Of a stretch of 64,000 nt of DNA, positions 16,518 through 21,883 are shown in pieces (within the stretch, counting starts at the first letter, position 1; every line of letters begins with the position of its first letter). Made by a program: the position numbers and the translations under genes. This DNA comes from Sulfurimonas sp. (GTDB taxonomy: Bacteria; Campylobacterota; Campylobacteria; Campylobacterales; Sulfurimonadaceae), in the NCBI RefSeq assembly GCF_041583195.1, contig NZ_JBFHGL010000002.1:124001-188000 (forward strand). The letters are read 5' to 3'. The notes beneath the pieces are model-generated. The model worked only from the letters and a program-made list of their open reading frames with translations, was not told the origin of the DNA and did no database searches.

Positions 16518-17399
16518 TTATCGCTCTATAATTAGACCATTATTATCAAAATTTAATGTTTTAACTGTAAATTCCGGAAATTTTTGCTTTAATTTGTTTG
16601 CAATCATAGCTGCATCTTCATCATAAACCATATTAAAAAACGTAGAACCGCTTCCACTTAACGTACTCATAAGTGCTCCACTTTCATATGCAACTTTTTG
16701 AACTGCAAAAAGCTCAGGCAGAGTTTTCATTCTTGCTTTTTGATGAAATCTGTCATGAGAAGCCAAACGCAACATCTCCCAGTCTTCATTAAAAAACGAA
16801 GCTACGCTAAGTGCCGTGTGTGAAAGATTATATACTGCATTATCTTTTGAATAAGACTTAGGCAGAACCGTACGAGAACGTGACGTGTTCATCTGCTTGT
16901 TTGGGATAATAACTACAGCTTTTATATAATCAGGCAGATGCTTTTTTTGTGAAAAAACCTTGTTCTTCTCAACAGTAGCAGCATTAAATCCACCCATCAC
17001 TGCAGGCGTAATATTATCTGGATGGTTTTCATATACAAGTGCATGGTTTAGTATTCTTCTTTTGCTAACTCTAATACCTGCTGCCTCATGAGCAGACGCA
17101 ATAGCAGATACAATTACTGCAGAAGAGCTTCCAAGACCTCTTGACATAGGTATTTGGTTATAAAAAGTAAACTTAAATGTTTGTCTTTTTTTTGTAAGAC
17201 GGTTGTAATGTTCGTTAAATATACCTATAAAAAGGTTATTTCCTTTAAGTCTAGGGTTACCTTCACCCTCACCTTTTATAGATACACTAAAAAATTTCGA
17301 TGGATGAAATTCAACTTTATTTCTTAAATCAACCGCAAGACCAAGTGAATCAAAACCCGGTCCTAAATTTGCACTAGTAGCTGGTACGCTAATTTCCAA
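16518..17399 (-). CDS. thrB: Homoserine kinase
   Basis: The 293-residue GHMP kinase phosphorylates homoserine for threonine synthesis. The ATP-binding motif [11 protein letters not shown] is at about 83-93; the N-terminal strand [16 protein letters not shown] and the [15 protein letters not shown] motif also match ThrB. It is ten bases downstream of tsaB in a gene order I recall from Campylobacter (lpxC, tsaB-like, thrB). Confidence 0.94.
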
Positions 17400-17408
17400 T
17401 TGTTTTTC

Positions 17409-17870
17409 CTATCCAACTGCTCCTATTGCATATAGGGGCGTTGTATTTTCATCAAACTCATCATACTCAAGCACATCTTTTAGTTCAAATTTACCAATAG
17501 GCGCTTTTTCTAGTTTTTGAGTTTCTATTTTAGAAAAGATTTTAACAAAAAATAGCTTTCCAATCGCTTTTATTGGTTGATTATCATTAAAATAAAACGC
17601 ATCTGTTGCAAAAAGTGGAATTTTTTTCAAAATAGATAGTGATTTTAAAAAAAGATATGTGATCTTTATAGCCATAAAACTTCCGGGACCTTTTGCATAA
17701 AAAAGATTTTTGATCTCATATTTTTTTAAAAGCTCTTCAAATATTTCAGGTAATACTTCAGAAGTTTTTTCCTCTGTAGATATAGTTTCTATAAGTTTTT
17801 TATTTTCATATACTCCAATTAAGATCGGAGATGAAAGAGTTACGCAAACTACATCTACATTTTTAAGCAT
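17409..17870 (-). CDS. tsaB: Short TsaB-like tRNA t6A-modification protein
   Basis: The 153-residue protein shows the N-terminal ASKHA-type lobe of TsaB, with the conserved [12 protein letters not shown] (GPGSFTGLR in most TsaB) and a hydrophobic strand start. TsaB is the non-catalytic partner of TsaD in making t6A37 on ANN-decoding tRNAs. It is much shorter than E. coli TsaB (231), having lost most of the second lobe; I believe this compact form is usual in Campylobacterota but cannot check here. It overlaps lpxC by eight bases. Confidence 0.8.
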
Positions 17871-18747
17871 ACGCTTTTTCTAACTCTTTCGTTTTTTCAC
17901 CTACAAGTTCTATAACTTCGTAGTTTTCTTCAGACTTTAAAAGCTCAAGAGTCAGTTTGTGGTTTAGATCATGACTTCCCGCCATTGCTTCATAGTTTCC
18001 TATGAAGTTCATCCCGATAAGGCTCATATCACCGATAGCATCTAGAATTTTATGTCTTACAAACTCGTCTGAATATCTTAACCCCTCAGGATTTAGAACT
18101 TTTTTATCGTCTAATACAACTGCATTTTCTAACGATCCGCCAAGTGCTAAACCTTTTGAACGAAGATACTGAACTTCTTGAACAAAACCGAAAGTTCTAG
18201 CACGTGAAATCTCATCTTTATAAGCTTGTTTAGTGAATTTTAAAGAGTAGTCTTGTTGTTTGATTACTGGGTGTGGGAACTTGATTGTAAAGTCATAGTT
18301 TAGATCTGGTGAAGGTGATAATTTTACATACTTTTCACCCTCTTGAACTACAACCTCTTTTTTAATACGCATAACTTTTTTAGGCTCATCTAACTCTTGT
18401 CTTCCTGCCTCGTCTAAAAGCATACAAAAACTTGCACTGCTTCCATCCATTACAGGTACTTCATCAGCATCAACCGTAACTTTTAAATTATCTATTCCAT
18501 ATGCATATATTGCAGATAAAAGGTGCTCTATTGTAGATATAACGTTTCCATCTTTACCAATCACGGTAGCCATTTTCGTATCTACAACATTTTCAGGAAT
18601 AAGAGGTATAGCTACATCAACGTCACTTCTATAAAAAACAATCCCTCCATTTGCTTCTTGAGGTTCAAGTTTAAGCTTTACAGGAGATCCTTTGTGAAGA
18701 CCTATACCTACTAATTCTACACTTTTTTTAATTGTACTCTGATACAT
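17863..18747 (-). CDS. lpxC: UDP-3-O-acyl-N-acetylglucosamine deacetylase LpxC
   Basis: LpxC (294 residues) catalyses the committed step of lipid A synthesis using zinc. Ligands are visible in STIEHLLSA (about 75) and [11 protein letters not shown] (about 228-238), and the catalytic His is in GSHDLNHKL. The N-terminal GIGLHKG and SRARTFGF motifs are also canonical. It sits nine bases after the M23 peptidase gene, so lipid A and peptidoglycan functions are co-transcribed. Confidence 0.97.
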
Positions 18748-18756
18748 AATATACCC

Positions 18757-20124
18757 TTATTTCCCATCGATAATATTTTTAGCATTATCGATTATATCTG
18801 TAATATTTAGCTTGATCCAAGCAGTATCCATCCACTCAGCTGGGCGAACTTCGATACCTTGAACAAGAACTCCAAAGTGTAGGTGATCACCCATTGCATA
18901 CCCACTTTTTCCACTTCTTGCAATAGAATGTTCAGCATTTACAAACTCACCGCTATTAACACTTACACTTGAACAATGCCCGTAAAGTGTGTATAGTCCT
19001 AAACCATGATGAATTATCGGCATATTACCATATAGTCCATTAAAGTCTGAGTATACTACATCTCCGCTATTTTGAGGCTTAATTTCAGCCATAGCATTTG
19101 AGGCCAAATCTAAACCTAAGTGAAATGATTCACTTAAATAGCTACCTTTATAAAGATATTTTCTATGATCACCAAACGTTGCAACAACCTGTGCATTTTT
19201 AAGCGGATACATCTTATTGATTTTAAGTTGTGATACTTTTTCCTGAGGAACTTTTGAAGTTATCTCATGAATTAATTTTTCATTCTTAGCACGGACATCT
19301 TCATTTATTATTTTAAACTGCTCTAGTGGATTTTCTACACCTTGAGTTTCTAAAAATTCCTCTGCCAGTTCAGCGATTTTACCGCTTAAAAATCTATCAC
19401 TTATATTAATGCGTGATATTCTATAGTTTTTATTTTTCAGATATAGAGGAATATAACTTTTTGCCATATTTCCAGCATAATCTTTAACAACGATATTTGC
19501 TTTAAAGTTTCTCTCTGTTACAGGCCAAGCTAGAAGAGATATAAAATAACCGTCTTTATAAAATGGTTGAGCTATAAATTTTTTACCGTAGTTTGTTTCA
19601 ATATACATGTCTTTTAGGTTTTCATCTTCAGCTTTAAAAATAACTACAGCCGAACCACCTTTGTTAATCTTGTATGAGTGTGCGATTGTAACTACAGACG
19701 GTCTGCGTTTATCGATTTTCAATTCATAATCTTTTACTACAGAGTTACCTTTAAAAAAGTTCCATTTGCTGCCATCAACAGCTTCAACACTTAAAGTTAT
19801 AACATCATCTTTCATAGCATAAGCACTGCGAGGAGGTTCTACATTTATATTTACATTGTTTTGTAATACAAGAGGTTGGTCTGAATATAGTACTTTTTCA
19901 CCAGATAAACTTTTTAAAGAAACTCTATATGATTGAATACCGCTAGCATCTTCAATTTCTAAACTCAAAGGTTTTTTCAAATTCCAATAACCGTTAGTGC
20001 TTAGTGTTACCTGAGGTATATTTCTCTCAAACATTTTAGAGTTGTAAAGGTAGATGCCTCCACCAATAATCAGTGCAAATAATATAAGTGTACCTATAGA
20101 TGAACTATTGTTCCTTCTTCTCAA
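18757..20124 (-). CDS. Membrane-anchored M23 peptidoglycan endopeptidase
   Basis: The 455-residue protein has an N-terminal membrane anchor (about 11-28), a long Ig-like/beta-rich periplasmic region, and a C-terminal LytM/M23 domain. Zinc ligands are present in HLGLDLAS (about 334) and GDHLHFG (about 413), so it should be an active metallopeptidase. In related bacteria, M23 proteins in this position (C. jejuni Pgp3-type; H. pylori Csd1/2 family) cut peptide cross-links to shape the cell. The start overlaps the DHH-like gene by four bases (ATGA) and lpxC follows closely. Confidence 0.9.
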   Translation of the reverse strand: MRRRNNSSSIGTLILFALIIGGGIYLYNSKMFERNIPQVTLSTNGYWNLKKPLSLEIEDASGIQSYRVSLKSLSGEKVLYSDQPLVLQNNVNINVEPPRSAYAMKDDVITLSVEAVDGSKWNFFKGNSVVKDYELKIDKRRPSVVTIAHSYKINKGGSAVVIFKAEDENLKDMYIETNYGKKFIAQPFYKDGYFISLLAWPVTERNFKANIVVKDYAGNMAKSYIPLYLKNKNYRISRINISDRFLSGKIAELAEEFLETQGVENPLEQFKIINEDVRAKNEKLIHEITSKVPQEKVSQLKINKMYPLKNAQVVATFGDHRKYLYKGSYLSESFHLGLDLASNAMAEIKPQNSGDVVYSDFNGLYGNMPIIHHGLGLYTLYGHCSSVSVNSGEFVNAEHSIARSGKSGYAMGDHLHFGVLVQGIEVRPAEWMDTAWIKLNITDIIDNAKNIIDGK

Positions 20125-20792
20125 ACCAAATCTCCTTCATTAAAAATCTCTTTATTTTTGTATTTTACTATTACTCTATTTACAGTTGGTAAAGAAAGTG
20201 CATCTTTTACAACTATTTTTGCATCTTTTAAAGTAGATCCGCTACATTTAAGATCACTATCTTCTAGATTAATCAGTGCCGTTTCACCAGAATCACTCAG
20301 CACCATTTTCTTTAAGAGTATAGCCTTTAGTCTAAGGCTAGCCAATGAGTTATAATTTAGAATATATCTGTTACAACTATCAACATCGGCACCAGCTTCA
20401 ACAAGCTCATAAGCCAAAGCAAAAGTTATGCCATTAACATTATTTAAAAAGCCTTTAGTCCTTGCAATCAAAGAAGCATATAGTGATGTAGCCATCTTTG
20501 AATTTAGTTTAATCTCATTGCTTTTAAAAAAACTGAAAACATCTTTAGAGCTCTCAAGTTTTATATCCATATCCGCTGAAGAAGGATAAGAATTTTTAAG
20601 CTTATCCATCCAAGGTAAAAAACTCAAGTTTTTTTTGCTATCCTCACACTCAGAATAAAAGCTTACTTTTTTATGCTGTGTTAAAATAAAAGAATATAGT
20701 GCATTTGCAGATGCAATAAGAGCATCATCTGCATCACTCGGCAAAGATATAACTATATGATCTGCATCATTGATTTGTTCTAAACTTAGCAC
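20121..20792 (-). CDS. Degenerate DHH (NrnA/RecJ-like) phosphoesterase-fold protein
   Basis: The 223-residue protein looks like the N-terminal DHH domain of NrnA-type phosphoesterases. The opening ADHIVISLPSDADDALIASANALY follows the family pattern around NPDGDAxGS, and SLYASLIARTKGF followed by AYELVEAGAD follows the family GILTDTGxF segment. At both places the metal-binding Asp residues are altered (PSDADD for PDGD, ART for TDT), and there is no DHH triplet or C-terminal DHHA1 domain. I therefore call it a probable non-catalytic relative. It overlaps the M23 peptidase gene by four bases and follows flhB after 32 bases. The role is unknown. Confidence 0.6.
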   Translation of the reverse strand: MLSLEQINDADHIVISLPSDADDALIASANALYSFILTQHKKVSFYSECEDSKKNLSFLPWMDKLKNSYPSSADMDIKLESSKDVFSFFKSNEIKLNSKMATSLYASLIARTKGFLNNVNGITFALAYELVEAGADVDSCNRYILNYNSLASLRLKAILLKKMVLSDSGETALINLEDSDLKCSGSTLKDAKIVVKDALSLPTVNRVIVKYKNKEIFNEGDLV

Positions 20793-20824: not shown

Positions 20825-21883
20825 CTAGTTTTTGTTTTTGTTAGCCTTATATACAAATGCTAATACTTCAGCCACGGCTGCAAAAAGTGCTTCAGGAATA
20901 GGCTTGTCGATCTCCACATCTTTATAAAGTGCACGAGCAAGTGGAGGGTCCTGCATAACATGGACACCCGCTTCACGTGCTATTTTCTTGATCTGAAGTG
21001 CTACATTATCTTTACCTTTTGCTACAACAATTGGAGCATGACTTACCTCTGCATCATACTTTAGAGCTACGGCAAAGTGAGTCGGATTTGTTACGACAAC
21101 ATCCGCATTTGGAACTTCAGCCATCATCCTTTTTCTACTCGCCTGCATTTGAATTTGGCGGATCTTTGATTTTACTAAAGGATCCCCTTCCATATTTTTC
21201 ATCTCATCTTTAACTTCCTGTTTACTCATTTTTAGTCCGTCAAAGTACTGTTTTCTAACTATAATTATGTCTATTACTGCAAATACGAATATAATCAAAA
21301 GCATAACAAGTGCGATAATAAGAGCCTTATCCGCAAGCCATTCCATTTGATCTGCAAGACTCATTAATGCAACAGTGGGAAGCTCTTTAATAAAGAAAAA
21401 GAAAAATATAAAACCAACACCAAGAGTTGTAAAAGACTTGAAAGTTGTCTTTACACCATCTATAAGTTTTTTCATTGAAAATAGATTTTTAGTACCCTTT
21501 ATAGGATCTAGTTTTTTTAAATCAGGCACGATTGCTTTTGTAGTAAACAAAAAACCAAACTGAGCGAGTGCTGCTAAAATACCTGCTATTGCAACAGCGA
21601 TAGCTATTGGCATAACCATTATCAAGAACTCTCTTATAGTTACTATGGCAATATCTACCATTAGTCTTGAATCAAGAGGTGTACCTTGCAAGGAAAAATA
21701 GTATTCAAAAAGCCCTATCATATGCTTACCTAAAAAAGGAAAAAGCATTAAAAAAGCAAGAATTGCAATAAAAAGAGTACCAACACCTGAAGCATCCTGG
21801 CTTTTTGGTACGTTACCCTCTTTTCTGGCGTCTTCTATCTTCTTGGGGGTGGGTTCTTCTGTTTTCTCAGCGTCATCAGCCAT
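20825..21883 (-). CDS. flhB: Flagellar export switch protein FlhB
   Basis: FlhB (352 residues) is a membrane component of the flagellar type III export gate. An N-terminal EEPTPKKIEDARKEGNVPKS segment leads into four membrane segments (about 30-210) and a cytoplasmic domain with the self-cleaving motif VTNPTHFAVALKY (Asn-Pro near 265). The tail (PEALFAAVAEVLAFVYK) is paralogous to FlhX at 6659-6913. It starts 20 bases after mscS and is transcribed within the frd-to-fum run rather than with other flagellar genes. Confidence 0.96.
   Translation of the reverse strand: MADDAEKTEEPTPKKIEDARKEGNVPKSQDASGVGTLFIAILAFLMLFPFLGKHMIGLFEYYFSLQGTPLDSRLMVDIAIVTIREFLIMVMPIAIAVAIAGILAALAQFGFLFTTKAIVPDLKKLDPIKGTKNLFSMKKLIDGVKTTFKSFTTLGVGFIFFFFFIKELPTVALMSLADQMEWLADKALIIALVMLLIIFVFAVIDIIIVRKQYFDGLKMSKQEVKDEMKNMEGDPLVKSKIRQIQMQASRKRMMAEVPNADVVVTNPTHFAVALKYDAEVSHAPIVVAKGKDNVALQIKKIAREAGVHVMQDPPLARALYKDVEIDKPIPEALFAAVAEVLAFVYKANKNKN

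Follow-up and report, generated by a model that had tools for sequence, protein, structure and literature searches.

Pseudoenzymes in general are a known parallel to the protein described here. Within the DHH family, one of the closest described systems is NrnA, whose active site is given in the structural account of PMC5593865 as D24, D26, D80, D156, H20, H103 and H104. In the Bacillus enzyme, as described there, an R-x-R-x-R strand and the GGGH motif of DHHA1 hold the substrate, and the protein dimerises around helices α5 and α9, away from the active site (PMC5593865). Cdc45 is presented in PMC5484177 as a DHH-family replisome protein with mutated metal-binding residues that acts as a structural subunit. 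In Campylobacterota, NrnB of H. pylori and C. jejuni is reported to restore dinucleotide cleavage in extracts of a B. subtilis mutant, and the informal survey in the same paper expects no NrnA in such Campylobacterota (PMC12709177). Our search of the open-licence literature found no paper on the pseudo-DHH protein that is the subject of this work.

The protein is encoded in a window of 64,000 nucleotides (the whole stretch of DNA that was analysed) from Sulfurimonas sp., contig NZ_JBFHGL010000002.1. Judged from its sequence, it is very probably a retained pseudoenzyme of the stand-alone DHH-DHHA1 (NrnA-like) phosphoesterases. Along the minus strand the genes are ordered flhB, pseudo-DHH, pgp6, lpxC, a TsaB-like ORF and a thrB-like gene, which agrees with the placement among flhB, M23 and lpxC genes given by an earlier, sequence-only reading of this DNA; the four-base overlap with the M23 gene that it claimed is also present. 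Just before the pgp6 TTG, within the 3' end of the pseudo-DHH gene, stands a GGAG that resembles a ribosome-binding site. The last two ORFs are presumably TsaB-like and ThrB, respectively; a Pfam scan of the former gave zero matches. A chance ORF is ruled out by matches (E ≤ 0.001) in 92/100 genomes of the same genus, including 61/61 of good quality.

Table 1. Features of the pseudo-DHH locus (window coordinates).
Feature	Coordinates	Strand	Remarks
Pseudo-DHH protein (short form)	20121..20792	minus	223 aa, GTG start; assigned from ORF, homologues and fold
4-nt overlap: pseudo-DHH stop (TGA) / pgp6 start (TTG)	20121..20124	minus	
pgp6 (M23 peptidase)	18757..20124	minus	membrane-anchored by eye, catalytic motifs present
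lpxC	17863..18747	minus	gene order kept across the order
flhB	20825..21883	minus	32 nt upstream of the pseudo-DHH gene
TsaB-like ORF, 153 aa (presumed)	17409..17870	minus	within conserved gene order
thrB-like GHMP kinase (presumed)	16518..17399	minus	within conserved gene order

The AlphaFold2 model of the pseudo-DHH protein, built from an alignment of 40 window and locus sequences, has a mean pLDDT of 94.1 and a pTM of 0.85. Foldseek ranks TM1595 first (E 9.5e-15) and other stand-alone DHH-DHHA1 enzymes next, with NrnA and Rv2837c among the fold matches, and VIA-align superposes the model on TM1595 with a Z of 18.9 and an rmsd of 3.6 over 222 residues. A fold other than DHH is ruled out by these matches. 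A profile built from short forms alone also finds TM1595 (E 2e-10), and the DHH relationship first proposed from sequence is thus borne out by structure prediction, fold search and profile match. Because the alignment covers only 0–271 of the 323 residues of TM1595, DHHA1 keeps its first half and is missing the one with GGGH, so that the window protein is predicted to consist of the core of the DHH domain, the linker and that first DHHA1 half; the absence of DHHA1 claimed by the sequence-only reading applies to the GGGH half only. Two elements in the model of one intact orthologue (pLDDT 92.0, pTM 0.68) have no counterpart in the window model: the strands of the DHH loop (95–100 and 111–114) and the end of DHHA1 (271–311, with GGGH).

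Family profiles pick out the intact relatives but not the short forms. Pfam DHH and DHHA1 match 17/17 of the intact orthologues scanned, and Pfam DHH (PF01368) matches 0/40 short forms. Neither Pfam nor NCBIfam names the window protein, for which the best NCBIfam line scores 16.1 bits against a cut-off of 707; the NrnA equivalog NF053633 returns no line for it, and the intact orthologue L034 scores 103.8 bits, below the 350-bit cut-off of that model. By fold and by orthology to intact members the window protein belongs to the DHH-DHHA1 phosphoesterases. As an enzyme of that group it fails at the DHH motif, the set of four metal-site Asp residues and GGGH.

We scored seven metal-site residues, which agree with the NrnA active-site set, together with GGGH across 152 distinct proteins. 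The window's own family (f1) comprises 46 intact and 71 dead loci, the latter divided into 54 short and 17 long but degenerate forms; the other families contribute 31 intact loci. Four loci stand outside these counts: L066 (f1), in which the DHH motifs are intact and only GGGH is changed, to GGGD; L188 (f1); L210 (altered) and L212 (cut off at a contig end), both of other families. L188 is a DHH-bearing orthologue broken by one stop codon, as a pseudogene or through a sequencing error.

The window protein has lost or altered the second motif-I Asp, all of the DHH loop, motif II and motif IV (where D has become R), and its R264 column, loosely aligned, holds no Arg. The Asp changes reported earlier at two motifs are therefore real, but more than two motifs are affected. 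Asp22 of the window protein aligns with the first motif-I Asp, which is retained by 48/71 dead forms. With all seven residues scored, the metal site is complete in 0/71 dead forms, and the residues lost differ by lineage. The degenerate long forms range from those with few changes (L045, L186) to those with a deleted DHH loop, and the ends of the deletions, as aligned, differ between L042, L033/L112/L054, L041/L049, L175, L176, L178 and L181. This graded series ends in the short form, without the DHH loop and without the GGGH half of DHHA1. Orthologues with intact residues, the finding that the sequence-only reading had named as one that would count against it, do exist (46 in f1, 31 in other families); they indicate that the loss is derived and repeated, and the pseudoenzyme reading is not refuted by them.

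The dead forms are not decaying freely. Across 15 pairs of short forms dN/dS is 0.06–0.28 (median 0.19); in the pairwise comparison two intact pairs gave no dS value by NG86. Pooled by three segments along the protein, the values are 0.18, 0.20 and 0.23 for short forms, 0.21, 0.16 and 0.24 for degenerate forms, and 0.12, 0.15 and 0.15 for eight intact f1 pairs. Neighbouring genes in the same short-form pairs mostly have lower dN/dS, for example 0.05–0.14 for the M23 gene. Dead forms are under purifying selection, evolving somewhat faster than intact forms and far below neutrality, and on these values we reject the possibility that they are pseudogenes. With its catalytic residues gone and the protein retained under selection, the window protein qualifies as a predicted pseudoenzyme, and the earlier claim to that effect is upheld by the agreement of fold, orthology, conserved gene order and lost metal ligands.

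Several residues are kept almost without exception where the catalytic ones are not, bearing in mind that the counts treat related sequences as separate and that the rows are not independent. W62 (window W61) is present in 71/71 dead and 44/46 intact f1 forms, K139 (window K99) in 71/71 and 45/46, N137 (window N97) in 70/71 and 45/46, and H41 (window H40) in 68/71 and only 34/46; among the 31 intact forms of other families the same four residues occur in 0, 0, 4 and 0, respectively. K42 (window K41) is found in 71/71 dead f1 forms, and Y34 (window Y33) and R195 (window R154) in 70/71 each, against 3/71 each for the catalytic H101, H102 and D151. Since W61, K99, H40 and N97 are already in most intact f1 enzymes, they most likely predate the loss of catalysis. 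Taken as a class, sites specific to f1 are retained no better than conserved ancestral sites that are still present (means 0.64 and 0.69; p 0.40), and the case for a kept patch rests on few residues. From the secondary structure elements of the model, the kept residues would lie at the surface, with K41 and the N-x-K of helix 98–112 at ends that appear to point away from motif I. By counting elements, helix 98–112 may tentatively be equated with α5 of NrnA.

The gene is nearly universal among close relatives. In the genus set, 89 of the 92 matched genomes were read, leaving out G056, G070 and G073 (split genes or contig ends). A profile of 17 intact forms matches 58/61 family genomes, 43/44 good ones; among family genomes at ≥ 90% completeness the gene is found in 146/147, and in 138/139 of the good-quality subset. 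Across the order sample 100/120 genomes match, of which 14 weak hits (E 1.7e-5 or worse) were read as NrnB, leaving 86, so that a clear orthologue is absent from 34/120 genomes. The intact NrnA-like orthologues found here qualify the expectation of the NrnB paper. In the loci read from other families, the enzyme is either intact (apart from the altered L210 and the cut L212) or the gene is absent; copies that are dead yet retained thus appear to be largely confined to f1, in keeping with a second role acquired in that family.

An M23 gene follows the DHH gene on the same strand in 187/189 loci, duplicates included (the exceptions are L211 and L212, the latter at a contig end), and the check on gene order in orthologues gave a positive answer, DHH-pgp6-lpxC being kept across the order. 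FlhB lies upstream in 89/108 distinct f1 loci and 15/33 other-family loci with ≥ 1200 nt of upstream sequence; some misses may be contig ends, and the idea of FlhB as an obligate neighbour was dropped on these counts. A strong M23 hit (E ≤ 1e-38) is present in 35 of 44 genomes picked because their DHH match was weak or missing, and several of the remaining 9 are incomplete. One complete f1 genome, G110, has no DHH gene: at its locus (L215) FlhB occupies 406–1458 and M23 1501–2859, with nothing between. The role of the DHH gene is, as this genome shows, not universal in f1. The M23 gene of G110 has a GTG start.

The M23 protein is Pgp6 (NCBIfam NF052529, 664.9 bits, cut-off 600). The sequence-only reading had called it a cell-wall endopeptidase; it is an M23 cell-wall enzyme, but its C. 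jejuni namesake is described as a DD-carboxypeptidase without endopeptidase activity (PMC12454360). In full-length copies HxGxD is present in 145/145 and HxH followed by F or L in 143/145, and decay of the M23 neighbour is rejected, the Pgp6 motifs being kept beside dead partners. By eye, no cytosolic Pgp6 tail was seen to follow the state of the DHH protein. A 4-nt overlap is possible in 39/76 intact loci (a count that omits L211, which has no M23 hit), 10/55 short and 3/18 degenerate loci. Close spacing is common and the exact overlap is not conserved, and a strict need for it is rejected.

The genome encodes further proteins of related type. A 361-aa DHH-DHHA1 protein occurs in 96/100 genus genomes (61/61 good ones); NCBIfam gives it no name, its single PDB match is 6mtz (E 7.8e-96), and from its sequence we infer that it is NrnB-like. 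The ORF preceding its gene we take to be FlhA-like. Also encoded are RecJ (526.8 bits, cut-off 396.9) and a family II pyrophosphatase. A 308-aa protein of the same genome (L119:634-1557) matches DHHA1 weakly and is not named by NCBIfam. Judging by the weak hits in the order sample, the other families very likely have NrnB too.

The ancestral f1 protein was a DHH-DHHA1 protein encoded directly upstream of pgp6-lpxC, and its metal site, DHH loop and GGGH substrate site have been lost repeatedly within the family; how many times is uncertain, the trees disagreeing on the short form. An IQ-TREE analysis of five neighbour proteins (62 rows, L003 absent) requires 14 changes between intact and dead, at least 11 of them forced by well supported branches, and the gene's own tree, built from 63 rows without the motif columns, requires 12, at least 6 forced. 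A loss-only count on a FastTree phylogeny of 151 rows (L026 absent) gives 21, an upper figure that includes the doubtful L066, L188, L210 and L212. On the own-gene tree a single clade (100/97) takes in every short-form row except L050 (20 rows), whereas on the neighbour tree the short form is scattered, with 6 changes, at least 3 forced; the short form may have arisen once and then spread by recombination, or one tree may be misled by long-branch attraction. The losses would be fewer than counted if one dead allele had spread by recombination inside the fixed gene order, and the single short-form clade on one tree against several places on the other is what such spread would leave. We regard this as unlikely, although not negligibly so: at least 6 changes are still forced on the own-gene tree, and both trees give good support to the pairs L191/L181, L187/L182, L065/L045 and L034+L035/L051 (for L046/L042 only the neighbour tree does).

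Three other accounts concern what the retained protein does. It might do nothing, the ORF being a translated leader whose 3' end supplies pgp6 with its ribosome-binding site and coupled TTG start, so that stops and frameshifts would be purged. A Shine-Dalgarno-like site does lie just upstream of the pgp6 start (assigned by rule as whichever ATG, GTG or TTG comes first near the DHH stop) in 48/54 short and 13/17 degenerate f1 loci, and the start is TTG in 50/54 and 14/17 of them, compared with 31/46 intact f1 loci and 7/29 intact loci of other families, where ATG is the more frequent start (21/29); erosion is mostly in frame, and lpxC lies downstream. A ribosome-binding-like site in the gene's 3' end can explain in-frame decay but not amino-acid constraint, and pooled dN/dS of 0.18–0.23 along the whole protein, invariant W, K, N and R residues, the confident globular fold of the model and the clean removal of the gene in G110 make a roleless leader distinctly unlikely. 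The sequence-only reading had suggested instead that the dead fold could tune the envelope by sensing a (di)nucleotide, which the retained DHH fold and the envelope genes downstream would suit. This proposal fared poorly and we consider it improbable: GGGH and the Arg at the loosely aligned column 264 are gone, of the metal ligands at most one Asp may be left, the equivalent residues hold the substrate in NrnA as described in PMC5593865, and the diadenylate cyclase family is found in 0/100 genus genomes. With the substrate-binding residues also lost, nucleotide sensing is unlikely. A related candidate, a c-di-AMP hydrolase lost together with its cyclase, was set aside; the count of 0/100 for the cyclase, which refers to the genus only, cannot explain which genomes lost catalysis. 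Finally, a rebuilt active site that still hydrolyses something could make use of D22, which aligns with the first motif-I Asp kept in 48 of the dead forms, but with none of the 71 keeping all seven metal-site residues and lineages losing different ones, the chance of this is very slight.

We therefore favour, as the probable overall explanation, a selectively kept dead NrnA-like fold that was exapted for a non-catalytic role, probably as a scaffold, before catalysis was lost. A scaffold role with prior gain of a binding surface is in our view the likeliest use of the protein, by a modest but real degree of confidence. The fold of the f1 ancestor would first have gained a second, non-catalytic binding role, probably that of a dimeric cytosolic scaffold or adaptor acting through the face of helix 98–112, away from the old active site. 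An NrnB-like protein would cover the nanoRNase work, making catalysis by the DHH protein unnecessary and open to loss on several occasions. In the weakest step, the putative partner would come from the envelope functions of the operon (Pgp6, LpxC or FlhB export). The link to the envelope is a guess from gene order. The envelope tuning proposed by the sequence-only reading suits the gene order and the tight junction, but sits less well with location: Pgp6 is anchored in the membrane and the C. jejuni protein of that name is periplasmic, while no signal sequence is apparent, by eye, on the pseudo-DHH protein.

The locus provides a graded series from enzyme to non-enzyme in sister species at a fixed gene order, and such a series makes it possible to ask which residues a hidden second function would need. 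As the short forms are invisible to Pfam, annotation likely misses them. Should the partner be Pgp6, LpxC or FlhB, a cytosolic protein would be tied to the control of cell shape and envelope in Campylobacterota.

Compared with known systems, the window protein shares its fold over its whole 223 residues with NrnA, TM1595 and Rv2837c, and Pfam DHH and DHHA1 recognise the intact orthologues that share its gene order. Unlike these enzymes, the window protein has almost no metal ligands left and is without the DHH loop and the GGGH half. NrnB, of clade B in Campylobacterota (PMC12709177), is likewise a stand-alone DHH-DHHA1 nanoRNase, and an NrnB-like protein is present in the same genomes, but it is the product of a separate gene elsewhere in the genome and is likely the backup rather than the window protein. 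Human Cdc45 (5dgo) matches the window model at Z 7.8, where a Z below 8 may reflect just a common arrangement. Cdc45 is of RecJ type and has its own CMG-interacting domain, for which the window protein, from its length, seems too short, and we claim no close relation between the two. What the two may have in common is a history: we tentatively suggest, at somewhat less than even confidence, that in f1 a nanoRNase-type enzyme took on a second, structural role through a new surface patch (W, H-K, N-x-K) and that its active site was then stripped independently, from six to more than 11 times, while the patch was kept, a bacterial parallel to Cdc45.
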